DNA of 33,645 nt from an uncultured Alphaproteobacteria bacterium (GTDB lineage: Bacteria > Pseudomonadota > Alphaproteobacteria > CAAHEQ01 > UBA3637), in NCBI GenBank assembly GCA_944393195.1, contig CALXZG010000002.1, positions 1 to 33,645 of the forward strand, written 5' to 3'. Below, in pieces: positions 1 through 15,619 of this stretch. The translations under genes and the position numbers were made by a program. Position 1 is the first letter of the stretch; every line of letters starts with the position of its first letter. A model generated the notes under the pieces. It did no database searches, was not told the DNA's origin, and worked only from the letters and a program-made list of their open reading frames with translations.

Positions 1-185
1 AAGATGCGTTGTTGACTTGCCGTCACGGCCCGTTTCCGCACTTCGTTGATAATGTCATTCGCATTCATTTTATCAATTGCATATCTGTATCCGGCAACAC
101 CACCGATTGACAATACGCCAGCCACAGCCAACACGCCCAACATTTCAACCATACTCCGTCCATTTTCCATTTTGATTTCAGTCAT
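1..185 (-). CDS. Type IV pilin-like protein, N-terminal part (cut by window edge)
   Basis: The first 61 codons of a minus-strand gene are present; the rest lies beyond base 1. The protein starts MTEIKMENG and continues GRSMVEMLGVLAVAG, a class III-like prepilin signal: a short leader ending in Gly, Glu at mature position 5, then a hydrophobic helix. After the helix it reads YRYAIDKMNANDIINEV. AGGAG lies 7 bases before the ATG and fixes the start. It is nearly identical over this stretch to the N-terminal region of the 14216-15619 gene, but its leader is only 9 residues long. The two genes also share upstream DNA, so they are paralogues. It is presumably cleaved by a prepilin peptidase and membrane-anchored or assembled into a pseudopilus; that is inferred from the family signature. 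Confidence 0.8.
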   Translation of the reverse strand, partial: MTEIKMENGRSMVEMLGVLAVAGVLSIGGVAGYRYAIDKMNANDIINEVRKRAVTASQQRI

Positions 186-3265: not shown

Positions 3266-3400
3266 GAAAAAGAACGGATTTTTACCTGCATTCCGGGGAC
3301 TCCTTTCTGCTTTTGACACCCGATATCCCCGTATTTGATAACCACCGCCGCGTCAAAATAGCCCCTAAAATCGAAAAAAAGTGTTAAAAATCAGGAAAGG

Positions 3401-3499
3401 ACTATACATTATATGCATTATGCGACAATGGACGAAAGTCTGGGGTTTGACGGGGGTAAAGGACACGTAATGTTAACATTAAAGTAAAGGATAAAAAAG
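3401..3499 (+). promoter_or_regulatory. Conserved 99-bp leader of short pilin-like genes, copy A
   Basis: This stretch is identical base for base to 4875-4973 and to the reverse complement of 4500-4598. It contains TATACATTAT near its left end, a mini-hairpin GGAC-GAAA-GTC with a GNRA-type loop (3430-3440), TTGACG, the 14-bp perfect palindrome TAATGTTAACATTA (3468-3481) and the ribosome binding site AAGGA 8 bases before the ATG. It probably holds promoter, operator and 5' UTR. Which hexamers are the promoter is not clear: TTGACG with ATGTTA at 17 bp is one reading, and the TATACATTAT box is another. Confidence 0.6.
3468..3481. promoter_or_regulatory. Perfect 14-bp palindrome, operator-like
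   Basis: TAATGTTAACATTA is its own reverse complement. It lies 18 bases before the start codon and is present in all three short pilin-like gene leaders. Confidence 0.5.
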
Positions 3500-3937
3500 A
3501 TGACAATGAAAAATGAATCCGGCCGTTCTATGGTCGAAATGTTGGGTGTGTTGGCCATTATCGGCGTTCTGTCCATCGGTGGTATCGCCGGTTATACAAT
3601 GGCGATGAACCGCTATCGTGCCAACGAAATCATTGATGCCGCTTCCAAAGTTGCGATTATCGGTATGACGATGAATAATGGAACAGGTGGTCAGGCCTCT
3701 CTGGCAGATATCGGAAACCCGAAGATTCCGTGTACAACATCAATAGCTGCAACCACTGATACGAATGGTGCTCAGGGTTTAGTGCAGGTTACTTTAAATG
3801 ACAGTTGTTCAGGTGTTGCCACTGTTCTTAATACTATTGCCGGGGATCGTTTAAGAGGTGCCGGTTGTACTGACAATGGTTCTTGTACTTTAAATTTCGG
3901 TGAACGCGCCGCTGCCAATGATGATGACGATGCATAA
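3500..3937 (+). CDS. Short type IV pilin-like protein A
   Basis: The 145-residue protein begins MTMKNESG then RSMVEMLGVLAIIG, a prepilin-type leader with predicted cleavage after Gly8, Glu at mature position 5 and a hydrophobic helix of about 20 residues. It is probably inserted in the inner membrane and may be processed into a pilus or pseudopilus subunit; the assembly machinery is not in the window. Four Cys residues in the C-terminal half could form disulfides. The tail is acidic (NDDDDA). Codons 1-46 are almost identical in DNA to those of the genes at 4005-4499 and 4974-5411; after about base 3637 the sequence diverges sharply. AAGGA sits 8 bases upstream of the ATG. A hairpin terminator follows at 3959-3991. 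Confidence 0.85.
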   Translation: MTMKNESGRSMVEMLGVLAIIGVLSIGGIAGYTMAMNRYRANEIIDAASKVAIIGMTMNNGTGGQASLADIGNPKIPCTTSIAATTDTNGAQGLVQVTLNDSCSGVATVLNTIAGDRLRGAGCTDNGSCTLNFGERAAANDDDDA

Positions 3938-3958
3938 TCACGTCTATCCCTAATACAG

Positions 3959-3991
3959 AAACGCCCTGCCGTTAGACAGGGCGTTTTTTTT
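3959..3991 (+). terminator. Rho-independent terminator between convergent pilin-like genes A and B
   Basis: AAACGCCCTG (3959-3968) pairs with CAGGGCGTTT (3977-3986) around an 8-base loop, and eight Ts end the structure at 3991. It lies 21 bases after gene A. On the minus strand the T tail is short, so it is a better terminator for A than for B. Confidence 0.85.
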
Positions 3992-4004
3992 ACGCGAAAA
4001 GAGG

Positions 4005-4499
4005 TTATCCGGCACCACCCTGGCCACCACCCTGGCCACCACCCTGGCCACCACCCTGGCCACCACCCTGGCCAGGAGCACGGGCGTTTTGTTCACCAAA
4101 GTCCAATTGACAGGCGGCAGCGTTATCGACTGTACAACCATTTGTTTCCAAACGGTTAGCAGCCAATGTCGCGATAATGTCGGCAACACCGTCACATGCA
4201 TCGTCCAATTTGATGGAAACAACACCCGTCGCATTGGAAGCGATATCCGTATCAGCAGCGATACACGGAATTGTGATGTTGGAACCTAAATCGCTGATAT
4301 CAGCAGCACCACCGGCACCGGCGTTAGCCGTCATAGCAACGATAGCGACTTTGGAAGCCGTATCAATGATTTCGTTGGCACGATAGCGGTTCATTGCCAT
4401 TGTATAACCGGCGATACCACCGATGGACAGAACGCCGATAATGGCCAACACACCCAACATTTCGACCATAGAACGGCCGGATTCATTTTTCATTGTCAT
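4005..4499 (-). CDS. Short type IV pilin-like protein B with Gly-Gln repeat tail
   Basis: The 164-residue protein has the same leader and helix as proteins A and C (MTMKNESG, RSMVEMLGVLAIIG). Its mature part is nearly identical to that of C (4974-5411) up to LDFGEQNA, with small differences such as GSN versus GNN and DDACDG versus QETCDG. It then ends in five GQGG units encoded by five perfect 12-bp repeats. It is convergent with gene A and divergent from gene C. The upstream 133 bp is an inverted copy of the DNA upstream of A. Function as a pilus or pseudopilus subunit is inferred from the prepilin signature only. Confidence 0.85.
   Translation of the reverse strand: MTMKNESGRSMVEMLGVLAIIGVLSIGGIAGYTMAMNRYRANEIIDTASKVAIVAMTANAGAGGAADISDLGSNITIPCIAADTDIASNATGVVSIKLDDACDGVADIIATLAANRLETNGCTVDNAAACQLDFGEQNARAPGQGGGQGGGQGGGQGGGQGGAG
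4013..4072 (-). repeat. Five perfect 12-bp tandem repeats in the 3' end of pilin-like gene B
   Basis: The unit on the plus strand is CACCACCCTGGC, present five times without change. In the protein it gives five Gly-Gln-Gly-Gly blocks just before the stop. The 12-bp unit keeps the frame, so copy number could change by slippage without breaking the gene. Genes A and C lack it. Confidence 0.9.
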
Positions 4500-4973
4500 C
4501 TTTTTTATCCTTTACTTTAATGTTAACATTACGTGTCCTTTACCCCCGTCAAACCCCAGACTTTCGTCCATTGTCGCATAATGCATATAATGTATAGTCC
4601 TTTCCTGATTTTTAACACTTTTTTTCGATTTTGTTTTCTTTTTTTGCATAATCGCATATCACGATATGTCTAAAACAAGTATTTTAAATTAAATTTTTAT
4701 AGAAATAAAAATAAAATACATCCCCTTTAAAAAGTAAATTTTTGGTAAATAAGCTGCTCTTTTTTGCAAATCGCCGATTTTTATTATAAATAATTCTTGC
4801 AATTAGTTATCAAACATGCTAGACACAAATCGTGAAGGGTGTCGCACACTGCTTCAAATCGCGTCGAAAATGCAACTATACATTATATGCATTATGCGAC
4901 AATGGACGAAAGTCTGGGGTTTGACGGGGGTAAAGGACACGTAATGTTAACATTAAAGTAAAGGATAAAAAAG
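4500..4973. promoter_or_regulatory. Divergent control region between pilin-like genes B and C
   Basis: This 474-bp stretch without a gene has inverted copies of the conserved leader at its two ends: 4500-4598 for gene B and 4875-4973 for gene C. On the B side the match to the DNA upstream of gene A runs on to base 4632. The middle (about 4640-4870) is AT-rich, has no reading frame of note and no hairpin with a T run. CATATCACGATATG near 4653-4666 is a small dyad. Confidence 0.6.
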
Positions 4974-5411
4974 ATGACAATGAAAAATGAATCCGGCCGT
5001 TCTATGGTCGAAATGTTGGGTGTGTTGGCCATTATCGGCGTTCTGTCCATCGGTGGTATCGCCGGTTATACAATGGCAATGAACCGCTATCGTGCCAACG
5101 AAATCATTGATACGGCTTCCAAAGTCGCTATCGTTGCTATGACGGCTAACGCCGGTGCCGGTGGTGCTGCTGATATCAGCGATTTAGGCAACAACATCAC
5201 AATTCCGTGTATCGCTGCTGATACGGATATCGCTTCCAATGCGACGGGTGTTGTTTCCATCAAATTGCAAGAGACATGTGACGGTGTTGCCGACATTATC
5301 GCGACATTGGCTGCTAACCGTTTGGAAACAAATGGTTGTACAGTCGGTGGCGCTGCCAACTGTCAATTGGACTTTGGTGAACAAAACGCCCCCGATCCCG
5401 ATGGCGAGTAA
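4974..5411 (+). CDS. Short type IV pilin-like protein C
   Basis: The 145-residue protein begins with the shared prepilin-type leader and helix (MTMKNESG, RSMVEMLGVLAIIG) and carries the mature domain found also in B: AIVAMTANAGAGGAADISDL, four Cys, and the closing LDFGEQNA. It ends PDPDGE where B has the Gly-Gln repeats. The start is fixed by AAGGA 8 bases upstream and by exact conservation of the leader. A terminator follows at 5436-5464. As with A and B, no assembly ATPase, prepilin peptidase or secretin gene is near, so the product must use machinery coded elsewhere. Confidence 0.85.
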   Translation: MTMKNESGRSMVEMLGVLAIIGVLSIGGIAGYTMAMNRYRANEIIDTASKVAIVAMTANAGAGGAADISDLGNNITIPCIAADTDIASNATGVVSIKLQETCDGVADIIATLAANRLETNGCTVGGAANCQLDFGEQNAPDPDGE

Positions 5412-5478: not shown

Positions 5479-7332
5479 TTACAACCCCGCCATTAAAAAG
5501 CGTTCAATCCGCGCGGCAAACCCCGCCGGATCCCGAATCGGTTCCCCGGCCGCAATCAAAGCCTGATCAAACAATACCCGCACGGCATCCGCAACAACAG
5601 CTTCCTGATCCGCCTGTCCAACCGCCTCGGCCAATTTCCGGATCATCGGATGCCGTTGATTGATTTCCAAAATACGCGTGCTGTCAAAAGCCGTCGCTTG
5701 CCCATGCGCTTTCATCAACCGTTCCAGATTCAAACTCATCTGCCCCTCCGGCGTAATCAAAGCCACCGGACTTTTCGTCAACCGATCCGTCATTTGTACC
5801 GCCCCGACTTCCTTGCCTAAAATCGTTTGAACCCGTTGTACCAAAGCATCCGCCGCCGCTTTATCCAAAGCCTCCCCGATATCCTGTTGATCCGCCGCCA
5901 CAGCATCAATATCCGCCCGCGCATGCATGACGGAAACAATCTTTTTCCCCTGATACGCATTAAATGTCTGCACCCAAAATTCATCAATCGGGTCGGTTAA
6001 TAATAATACCTCAATCCCCCGCGCGGCAAACCCTTCTAATTGCGGATTAACCCGCAAAGCATCCATATCCGTTCCGGTCAGGTAGTAAATATTTTCCTGC
6101 CCCGGCTTCATCCGCTTGACATAGTCGGCAAAGCTGACAAGCGCATCCCCCGCCGTCGTGTGGAAACGACACAACTCGGCCACTTCGTCCCGCTCATCAA
6201 TCGGTTCATACAACCCCTCTTTAAACACAATTCCGAAACTGTCCCAAAAAACCCGATAATCATCTGGTTTTTCCGCCCGCTTTTTCAATTCACCCAAAAT
6301 CCGATGCACAATGCCTTTCTTAATCTTGGCCATAACCGGCGTTTTTTGCAACATTTCCCGACTGACATTCAACGGCAAATCGTTCGTGTCAATTACCCCC
6401 GTCACAAACCGCAAAAAGTACGGCATTAACTCCGGCACATCATCGGTAATGAATACTTTGTTCGTGTATAACTGAATCCCCGACGGCCTGTCCGGCTGAA
6501 ATAAATTAAACGGCGGCTTTGTCGGAATAAACAATAACGCCGTGTAATCAATGACACCCTCCGCTTTGTAATGCAACGTCATCCACGGCGCGTCAAAAGC
6601 ATGCGATACCGATTGATAAAAATCTTTATACGCCGCTTCCGTAATATCTTGTTTCGGCTGCGTCCACAAAGCACTCGCCGCATTGATGGTTTCTTCCTTG
6701 TCCCCCTCACGCAACACAATCGGAATCCCGATGTGATCGGAATATTGCTTGACTAAATGCCGGATCCGAATCGGCTCCAAATACTCCCGCATGTCTTTCT
6801 TTAAAAACAACGTCACCGACGTGCCGGCCGGCGCATCCTTGTCCGGTGTCACGGTAAATGATCCCGCACCGTCCGATTCCCACAACCATCCGCTATCGTC
6901 CCCCGCTTTTTTCGTCCGAACAACAACCTTGTCCGCCACCATAAAGGACGCATAAAACCCAACCCCGAATTGTCCGATTAGGGCCATATCTTTTTGCTTG
7001 TCCCCGGTCAGATTTTTCATAAAGTCGGCCGAACCCGACCGCGCAATCGTCCCCAAATGATGAATCAAATCATCCCGATTCATCCCGATACCGTTGTCCG
7101 TCACCGTCAACGTTCCCGCCGCCGCATCCGGCGTAATCACAATCCGAAAAGCATCCGCCTTTCCCGCCAACTCCGGATGAACCAACAATGCGTAGCGTAA
7201 CTTATCACACGCATCCGACGCGTTTGAGATTAACTCCCGCAAAAAAATCTCGTGATTCGAATATAAAGAATGAATCACAATATCCAATACTTTGGCCACT
7301 TCGGCCTGAAAAGCCATTTTTTCTTCCGCCAT
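5479..7332 (-). CDS. htpG: Molecular chaperone HtpG (Hsp90 family)
   Basis: HtpG is the bacterial Hsp90, an ATP-driven dimeric cytosolic chaperone. The 617-residue length is close to the E. coli protein. The N-terminal GHKL ATP-binding domain shows ELISNASDACDKLRY at residues 33-47 (Glu33, Asn37 and Asp40 are the usual ATPase residues) and DNGIGM at 79-84, with GQFGVGFYASFMVADKV as the lid/glycine-rich motif. The middle domain has the typical LPLNVSREMLQ stretch, and a dimerisation domain closes the protein. The start has AAAGGGAA about 5 bases upstream. A promoter candidate is at 7367-7396. It is transcribed alone between two terminators. Confidence 0.97.
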   Translation of the reverse strand: MAEEKMAFQAEVAKVLDIVIHSLYSNHEIFLRELISNASDACDKLRYALLVHPELAGKADAFRIVITPDAAAGTLTVTDNGIGMNRDDLIHHLGTIARSGSADFMKNLTGDKQKDMALIGQFGVGFYASFMVADKVVVRTKKAGDDSGWLWESDGAGSFTVTPDKDAPAGTSVTLFLKKDMREYLEPIRIRHLVKQYSDHIGIPIVLREGDKEETINAASALWTQPKQDITEAAYKDFYQSVSHAFDAPWMTLHYKAEGVIDYTALLFIPTKPPFNLFQPDRPSGIQLYTNKVFITDDVPELMPYFLRFVTGVIDTNDLPLNVSREMLQKTPVMAKIKKGIVHRILGELKKRAEKPDDYRVFWDSFGIVFKEGLYEPIDERDEVAELCRFHTTAGDALVSFADYVKRMKPGQENIYYLTGTDMDALRVNPQLEGFAARGIEVLLLTDPIDEFWVQTFNAYQGKKIVSVMHARADIDAVAADQQDIGEALDKAAADALVQRVQTILGKEVGAVQMTDRLTKSPVALITPEGQMSLNLERLMKAHGQATAFDSTRILEINQRHPMIRKLAEAVGQADQEAVVADAVRVLFDQALIAAGEPIRDPAGFAARIERFLMAGL

Positions 7333-14215: not shown

Positions 14216-15619
14216 TTAGCGACACAGGGCGTAGCCGGCGAGGTGCCAACTGCCAGACTCGACCGCGCCTGAACTGCTATTCCATACATAATACGAACTA
14301 CACCCGCTTAATTTAGTTGCTGTCCAATAATGCTTACCCGTCGTGTGTGCCCATCCACTACAACTACCATAATAATTATTTGCCTTAACTGTTGCTAATT
14401 CTTCCGCTGTACACCCGTCTGTCACCGGTGCTAAACGCTTCCCAAGTGCATCACAGAAATTCTCCGCCGCATGATATGACATATAATCCGTTGACGCTGT
14501 GTATTCGGTTCCGTTAATTGTTACACTCGTGCTACTGATTGTTTCACACGTTCCGTTCAAGGCCTGACAACCATAGGTCGATTGGCAATATTGATTGTCC
14601 CCGGTGCAATCCGCATTCGTCAAACATTCTCCCTCTGTTTTAGTTGAAGTACATTCATAACTGTACGTTGATGCATTATATTGGCACCATTCCCCCTCAC
14701 CGCAACATTGATTAGCGCACGCTTCTCCATCCGGACAATAGACACAATAGTATCCACAAGGAGCACTCCCCTCTTTCGCACCCGGACATTTGGTACATGT
14801 ACCCATATAGGAATATCCGTGCCCGACAACCGGATTATCCGCATCCGGACACGTTAAACATTGACTTCCATATAAAAACTCTCCCTCATCACAATCTTCA
14901 TCAACCACACATTCCCCGGTGTTAAAGTCATGATACTCATTCGCACCACATTCCTGCGCCCACGGATCATCCCCGTTCTCTTCTCCCCCTTCTCCCGGGA
15001 CTAACGAATTATCCAATGTATTCGCAAATGCAAACAACATCTCATTATCCCCTTCGGCGCACGTTGTATCGTCATCGACCACAACACCTCCGACCGCTGT
15101 TTCTACCGGCATATTCCAATCCTGTTTCAGAATTTCATCACACACCCGTTGCGGCACATTTGATACCGTCAAAGCAAAAAATTTCTTATCCCCCACATAG
15201 TCGTTTATGGTCACAACATCATACAATCCTTTAATCCGGCCGTTGTCCCCATATTCCGATAAATTAATATCGTGTCCCAAGATGCGTTGTTGACTCGCCG
15301 TCACGGCTCTCTTTTTCACTTCATTGATAATGTCATTCGCATTCATCTTGTCCATCGCATATCGATACCCGGCCACCCCGCCAATCGACAGGACACCCGC
15401 CACCGCCAGAACACCCAACATCTCAACCATACTCCGTCCCCGCTCACCACGGCTACTTTCCGTCATCCCTGCGAAAGCAGGGATCTTTGAACACGCACTC
15501 CCTACTGTTAAACCGTCATCCCCGACCTGATCGGGGGTCTTATGACACACACCCGATGCCCCTAAATCACTATTTTGATACACACCACTTTTTCCGTTTT
15601 TATTTTTTGTTTCAGTCAT
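14216..15619 (-). CDS. Long Cys-rich type IV pilin-like protein with REP-derived leader extension
   Basis: The 467-residue protein has four parts: a 61-residue leader, the prepilin-like helix RSMVEMLGVLAVAG with YRYAMDKMNANDIINEV, a Cys-rich middle (about residues 215-360) with many short CxxC and CxC spacings like small disulfide-rich modules, and a C-terminal domain with YMSYHAAENFCDALGKRLAPV and YWTATKLSGCSSYYVWNSSSG that resembles the DUF1566/C-type-lectin-like fold, often a binding domain at the cell surface. The paralogue at 1-185 has a 9-residue leader. Here about 156 bp have been added in frame, including two REP-like units (peptides HKTPDQVGDDG and SKIPAFAGMT). AAGGAG at good distance supports the start at 15619. 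Role in adhesion is inferred. Confidence 0.85.
   Translation of the reverse strand: MTETKNKNGKSGVYQNSDLGASGVCHKTPDQVGDDGLTVGSACSKIPAFAGMTESSRGERGRSMVEMLGVLAVAGVLSIGGVAGYRYAMDKMNANDIINEVKKRAVTASQQRILGHDINLSEYGDNGRIKGLYDVVTINDYVGDKKFFALTVSNVPQRVCDEILKQDWNMPVETAVGGVVVDDDTTCAEGDNEMLFAFANTLDNSLVPGEGGEENGDDPWAQECGANEYHDFNTGECVVDEDCDEGEFLYGSQCLTCPDADNPVVGHGYSYMGTCTKCPGAKEGSAPCGYYCVYCPDGEACANQCCGEGEWCQYNASTYSYECTSTKTEGECLTNADCTGDNQYCQSTYGCQALNGTCETISSTSVTINGTEYTASTDYMSYHAAENFCDALGKRLAPVTDGCTAEELATVKANNYYGSCSGWAHTTGKHYWTATKLSGCSSYYVWNSSSGAVESGSWHLAGYALCR
15460..15490 (+). repeat. REP-like unit inside the coding sequence of the Cys-rich pilin-like gene (type 1 stem)
   Basis: CGTCATCCCTGC-GAAA-GCAGGGATC forms a hairpin and matches the units at 13655 and 30834. 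On the coding (minus) strand it encodes SKIPAFAGMT, in frame, immediately before the prepilin motif. Confidence 0.85.
15513..15557 (+). repeat. REP-like unit inside the coding sequence of the Cys-rich pilin-like gene (type 2 stem)
   Basis: CGTCATCCCCGACCTGATCGGGGGTCT matches the unit at 13755 and carries the tail TATGACACACAC, a variant of CATGACACGCAC. On the coding strand it encodes CHKTPDQVGDDG in frame. Confidence 0.85.

Follow-up and report, generated by a model that had tools for sequence, protein, structure and literature searches.

fimS, the invertible promoter of the Escherichia coli type 1 fimbriae, is a short (~300 bp) segment that lies between facing repeats and follows a tyrosine-recombinase logic. 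In the shufflon and in Moraxella pilin inversion, the head stays constant and dedicated recombinases swap the C-terminal tail attached to it. The recombination site dif serves the resolution of chromosome dimers, normally near the chromosome terminus, where FtsK activates it; phages and resistance modules use copies of dif for docking. Acinetobacter plasmids have been shown to undergo inversion at pdif sites whose spacers are identical (PMC13141974). In Ureaplasma, XerC inverts DNA at mba/UU172 and alternates surface proteins; the inversion repeats differ from its putative dif sites, and a separate recombinase binds them (PMC3599477). Our literature searches joining invertible promoters with dif sites, or invertons with XerC, returned no such case, a weak negative from a search that covered few subscription papers.

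The window analysed here is a stretch of 33,645 nucleotides (bases 1-33645 of contig C2) from a 1.15 Mb genome in 24 contigs (G000), and the relatives with which we compared it are uncultured, mostly gut, Alphaproteobacteria. We identified three pilin-like genes in the order secA(-) A(+) B(-) C(+) htpG(-). Each is preceded, ~70 bp 5' of its start codon, by the same 28-bp site, which consists of an 11-bp XerD arm, a 6-bp spacer and an 11-bp XerC arm, as dif does (Table 1). The window contains three matches to this site, against 0 in 100 dinucleotide shuffles. Set against the genome's own chromosomal dif, the sites have an identical XerC arm, agree at 10 of 11 positions of the XerD arm and differ at 2 of 6 spacer positions. 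They are very likely dif-derived Xer sites. A chromosomal dif proper is defined by being a single copy at the replication terminus; since three copies stand in one locus and the true dif is on contig C18, we refer to the window sites as dif-like.

Table 1. Features of the pilin locus and related elements (window coordinates).
Feature	Position	Strand	Description
Left arm, A/B inverted repeat	3367..3637	+	
Dif-like Xer site, gene A	3401..3428	+	ACTATACATTA (XerD arm) TATGCA (spacer) TTATGCGACAA (XerC arm)
A/B module	3429..4570		convergent A and B between facing sites; XerC arms inside ('C module' layout)
Gene A	3500..3937	+	type IV pilin-like protein, 145 aa
G+C-rich hairpin	3959..3993		between 3' ends of A and B; AAACGCCCTGCCGTTAGACAGGGCGTTTTTTTT; read from sequence
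Gene B	4005..4499	-	type IV pilin-like protein, 164 aa; tail is a Gly/Gln repeat
12-bp tandem repeat	4013..4084		Gly/Gln tail of gene B
B/C inverted repeat	4075..4598 and 4875..5398		524 nt, 97% identity
Right arm, A/B inverted repeat	4362..4632	-	
Dif-like Xer site, gene B	4571..4598	-	same 28 bp; inverted relative to A and C sites
Promoter-bearing spacer	4599..4874		276 bp between facing B/C sites; XerD arms inside ('D module' layout); proposed invertible element
Putative promoter	4797..4825	+	TTGCAA-N17(TGC)-TAGACA, toward gene C
Dif-like Xer site, gene C	4875..4902	+	same 28 bp; C becomes homologous to A/B exactly from here
Gene C	4974..5411	+	type IV pilin-like protein, 145 aa; 92% identity to B when aligned
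Further pilin-like heads	3..185 and 14216..15619	-	

The chromosomal dif of this family came from a search of 43 family genomes with the leader common to the pilin genes, in which many genomes gave one strong match of 27-29 bp. In G000, the chromosomal dif (G000:C18:20640-20667) reads ACTATACATAA TATAAA TTATGCGACAA, a sequence that recurs across the family. The reverse complement of E. coli dif is ATTTAACATAA TATACA TTATGCGCACC, which identifies the family match as dif. In a pattern scan, nearly every genome with any dif had just one, and a control scan of the family genomes with the reversed pattern gave 0 matches. On long contigs, dif lies at the start of a broad cumulative GC-skew maximum in G003 and ~15-20 kb off the maximum in G013. 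At G000:C18:20640-20667 and homologous places, one to three DnaA boxes (TGTGGATAA) stand within ~60-130 bp beyond dif, an unusual neighbour for a terminus site. We considered an origin element as the identity of the motif beside these boxes and rejected it because GC skew puts the motif at or near the terminus.

The proteins encoded by A, B and C have the hallmarks of type IV pilins. In each, GRSMVEMLGVLAIIGVLSIGG comes after a class III prepilin leader, and the mature N terminus presents G, E at +5 and a long hydrophobic helix. Their matches to Pfam accession PF07963 in a profile search (E 0.005-0.014) are below the family cut-off. In a predicted model of C (mean pLDDT 76), a small domain at the C terminus accompanies a long N-terminal helix. 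Foldseek returned zero significant matches for this model; upon re-alignment of the Foldseek candidates with VIA-align, the first eight rows were type IV pilins with modest Z (3-6). The predicted fold of C thus appears closest to type IV pilins, at a modest level of similarity. Secretion ATPases and a prepilin peptidase are encoded in the same genome.

A pilin query against the source genome gave 41 matches, almost all confined to the head. The pilin-like head family has ~40 members per 1.15 Mb, many of them with long Cys-rich tails, and two further stretches of the window encode such heads. The 12-bp repeat in gene B could change copy number in frame through slippage. The hairpin between A and B is plausibly a bidirectional terminator common to both genes, judging from its sequence and position.

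The initial annotation described A and B as an inverted repeat with different tails and proposed an invertible cassette in which a constant head is joined to alternative tails. The repeat is as described: after reverse complementing, its arms differ at the single base 3604 (G/A) and contain the leader (133 bp 5' of the ATG) and 46 codons. Past the arms, A and B are no more than 55% and 30% identical in their tails, which are ~50% identical as protein and are as distant from one another within this genome as some tails are between species. Fourfold-site counts bear out the constant head and variable tail, in the form of concerted head evolution with diverged tails: 0-1 of ~22 such head sites differ within the genome, versus 9-10 between species. 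We also identified a longer B/C inverted repeat that had not been singled out earlier. Homology of C to A and B starts at base 4875, the outer edge of the dif-like site.

An inversion arrangement is likely, but the crossover is probably the 28-bp dif-like site and not the 271-bp arm itself. The joining of heads to new tails would not be the outcome. With the dif-like site lying 5' of each gene in its entirety, it is A and B in full, not their tails, that inversion would swap. The boundaries of the cassette (3367-4632) also need revision, as the more informative element is the spacer between B and C, which falls partly outside them and carries a promoter motif.

The promoter in this spacer is putative and depends on a short motif. 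TTG-N17-TGNTA is enriched in the leaders of short pilins in the family (14 of 48, versus 1 antisense and 1.5 in shuffles). Single-copy relatives that lack the dif-like site have the same motif, mostly ~70-150 bp 5' of the ATG. In the window, it precedes C only, beyond the site, and is absent from A and B. A promoter downstream of the site but before the ATG (TTGACG in the window) was set aside as less likely because the dif-less relatives carry the motif further out. Generic sigma-70 scoring of the spacers gave best scores inside the random range (95% = 11.1), and the comparative motif alone was therefore used for the promoter call.

Related spacers contain similar motifs. The G003 spacer has a single such motif, directed at whichever of its two pilins lies away from htpG, and the G029 spacer has a related TTGACA motif directed at pilins. 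The spacers of the window and G003 also have a common 73-bp block that extends up to the -35 element (score 42, versus a maximum of 40 in 200 shuffles). This block is oriented toward htpG in the window and away from htpG in G003. Opposite orientation is the difference that inversion would leave, though here it is seen between species.

Beyond the chromosomal dif, G000 and four more genomes carry dif-like sites that have good arms and precede paired or tandem pilins. G000 has three such sites (TATGCA in all). G003, from the same genus, has a good site and a second whose XerD arm is degenerate (both TATACA). Two good-arm sites are present in G029 (both TGGAAA) and in G030, which belongs to another genus (both AGTAAA), and G032 has one. 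In G003, divergent pilins also adjoin htpG, and the two sites face each other across a 529-bp spacer; their XerD arms are strongly different, yet the two agree fully in the 6-bp spacer and the XerC arm, where homology starts. G029 has facing sites that make up a perfect inverted repeat of 28 bp, with flanks that share no homology. They bound a 234-bp promoter spacer; tandem pilins lie to one side of it and, beside the site at the far end, the dnaJ 3' end lies to the other. In G030, two facing sites flank two convergent pilins, which is the A/B layout (L204), and further pilins are next to them. The G032 site is upstream of tandem pilins at the extreme end of a contig.

The 6-bp spacer is identical inside each multi-site locus (window, G003, G029 and G030) and differs between species. 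It is also unlike the spacer of each genome's own chromosomal dif (TATAAA; TAAAAA in G029). One spacer per locus would be expected because strand exchange would need spacer identity, and the pattern is consistent with the trace of private recombination sets.

Two observations weigh against a pilin switch. Single pilins with no dif-like site in their leaders are retained in the close relatives G001, G002 and G013, and in G022 and G024 three weaker dif-like sites stand away from pilins. These sites (G022:C70:12178, G024:C33:10330 and G024:C51:7082) are of a different type, TTTAAATAATATTTATTATGCGACAT with a conserved GGGGCCGGCGGGGC flank, and ankyrin-like repeat genes are close to the one on G024:C51. 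G025, G027 and G028 have many copies per genome of a AAAATCAAAAAAAAGTGTTGCAAAAATC-like sequence that resembles the 30 bp preceding the sites of A and B. In G017 (another genus), a 288-bp perfect inverted repeat (L209:5528-5815 and 6108-6395) accompanies two divergent pilin heads beside htpG. We set its palindromic facing site aside as a dif-like site, as it is too diverged for a confident call.

On balance, we favour the view that this locus is a pilin phase-variation switch that operates through Xer-type site-specific recombination at dif copies, and we lean toward promoter switching as the purpose of the inversion; both proposals draw on sequence comparison. XerC/XerD or a related recombinase would act on the facing sites. 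Inversion of the promoter-bearing spacer, the main invertible element, would turn the promoter from C to B. Inversion of the A/B module would cause A and B to trade places, so that A could also be placed beside the promoter and a single promoter could serve any of the three pilins. Switching between B and C would change little, as these genes differ little outside their C-terminal tails, and this weighs against the proposal. The sites of A and C are in direct orientation, and a crossover between them would remove A, B and the spacer. Conversion between the genes would keep leaders and heads alike while the tails diverge. Such a switch would call for dif-type activity away from the terminus, a further point against it.

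A xerC-type gene adjoins a priA-like gene and a xerD-type gene adjoins an lptF-like gene in the source genome (neighbours named by reading), which also encodes FtsK-gamma. Three integrase-family matches are present in the genome, on contigs C1 and C3. Among the window open reading frames, no recombinase gene was recognised beside the element, where fimB/fimE would be its counterparts. We identified a 198-aa tyrosine recombinase of FimB size that lacks the N-terminal SAM-like domain (G000:C1:232120-232716; L222:3121-3717), and this protein could be the acting enzyme instead of XerC/XerD. Similar small tyrosine recombinases occur in several relatives.

Contig ends provide indirect signs of heterogeneity. 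Contig C4 of G032 stops precisely at the outermost base of its site, the point where two spacer orientations would diverge. Contigs C6 and C23 of G003 have a 99-bp overlap that begins at the site centre, and they part where recombinant junctions would diverge. Other causes are possible in both cases, and the G003 contig is unbroken at the second site, contrary to expectation under full orientation mixing. Overall, the dif-like sites probably invert DNA.

Homogenised heads within genomes would also result from plain tandem or inverted duplication followed by RecA-dependent gene conversion, in which the sites ride along with the leader and there is no programmed inversion. The 271- and 524-bp arms suffice for homologous recombination. 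We nonetheless consider this explanation unlikely. Homology of the 271-bp arms was rejected as a sufficient account because the facing repeats of G029 are exactly 28 bp, with nothing more in common. Duplication and conversion also leave unexplained that spacers are kept within loci but differ between species, that homology of C begins at a site edge, and that the site is identical at 26 of 28 positions between G000 and G003 whereas the remaining leader matches at only 41 of 71.

The alternation of C and D layouts is equally a property of dif modules, and the sites may instead be pdif-like elements that move pilin cassettes between places or genomes, phase switching not being their function. 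Neighbours do vary by genus (secA/htpG, dnaJ or a deaminase-like gene). However, the htpG neighbourhood is common to G000 and G003, pilins adjoin htpG in G013 and G017 as well, the cargo is pilins alone, and viral contigs gave no match; mobility of this kind is improbable. We assign a still lower probability to sites that bind XerC/XerD or another protein for transcription control only, or that are relics from a pilin beside the chromosomal dif. Pilin-like genes at most ~2 kb from the chromosomal dif in several genomes (e.g. G003 and G004) would fit a relic, but relics are expected to decay, and binding alone needs no strict spacer identity within a locus.

Returning to the phase-variation switch, we see an about even chance that the housekeeping XerC/XerD dimer resolution machinery of this gut alphaproteobacterial family has been co-opted, through private dif copies with changed spacers, into a switch with one promoter and several pilins in at least two genera. 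If so, dif copies can be domesticated as an expression switch under housekeeping recombinases, with no adjacent dedicated invertase, and surface variation would be linked to the cell-division and terminus machinery. It would also supply a search rule for any genome, namely a private 6-bp spacer that is the same within a locus and unlike dif, and a handle on surface variation in uncultured gut Alphaproteobacteria with ~40 pilin-like genes per 1.15 Mb.

Among known systems, the locus resembles fimS in having a short promoter segment between facing inverted repeats beside fimbrial or pilin genes, a layout seen by sequence in the window, G003 and G029. It differs from fimS in its repeats (28-bp dif-like Xer sites versus the 9-bp fim type), in having no adjacent recombinase gene, in having alternative pilins on both sides, and in its subunits, which are type IV pilin-like instead of chaperone-usher subunits. 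As in the shufflon and Moraxella, inversion would set which pilin is made, but here entire genes would move. The sites share with Acinetobacter dif/pdif modules the 11+6+11 anatomy, the inverse orientation (+, -, +) that alternates C and D modules, and identical spacers within each reacting set, TATGCA in all three window sites (PMC13141974, PMC12907356, PMC6449649). The Acinetobacter modules carry resistance or toxin-antitoxin cargo, whereas the cargo here is pilins and a promoter spacer; unlike those modules, the pilin locus is chromosomal and partly conserved beside htpG, and no plasmid was seen. Ureaplasma mba offers the likeness of Xer-family inversion of surface genes, but the window sites are instead near-copies of dif.
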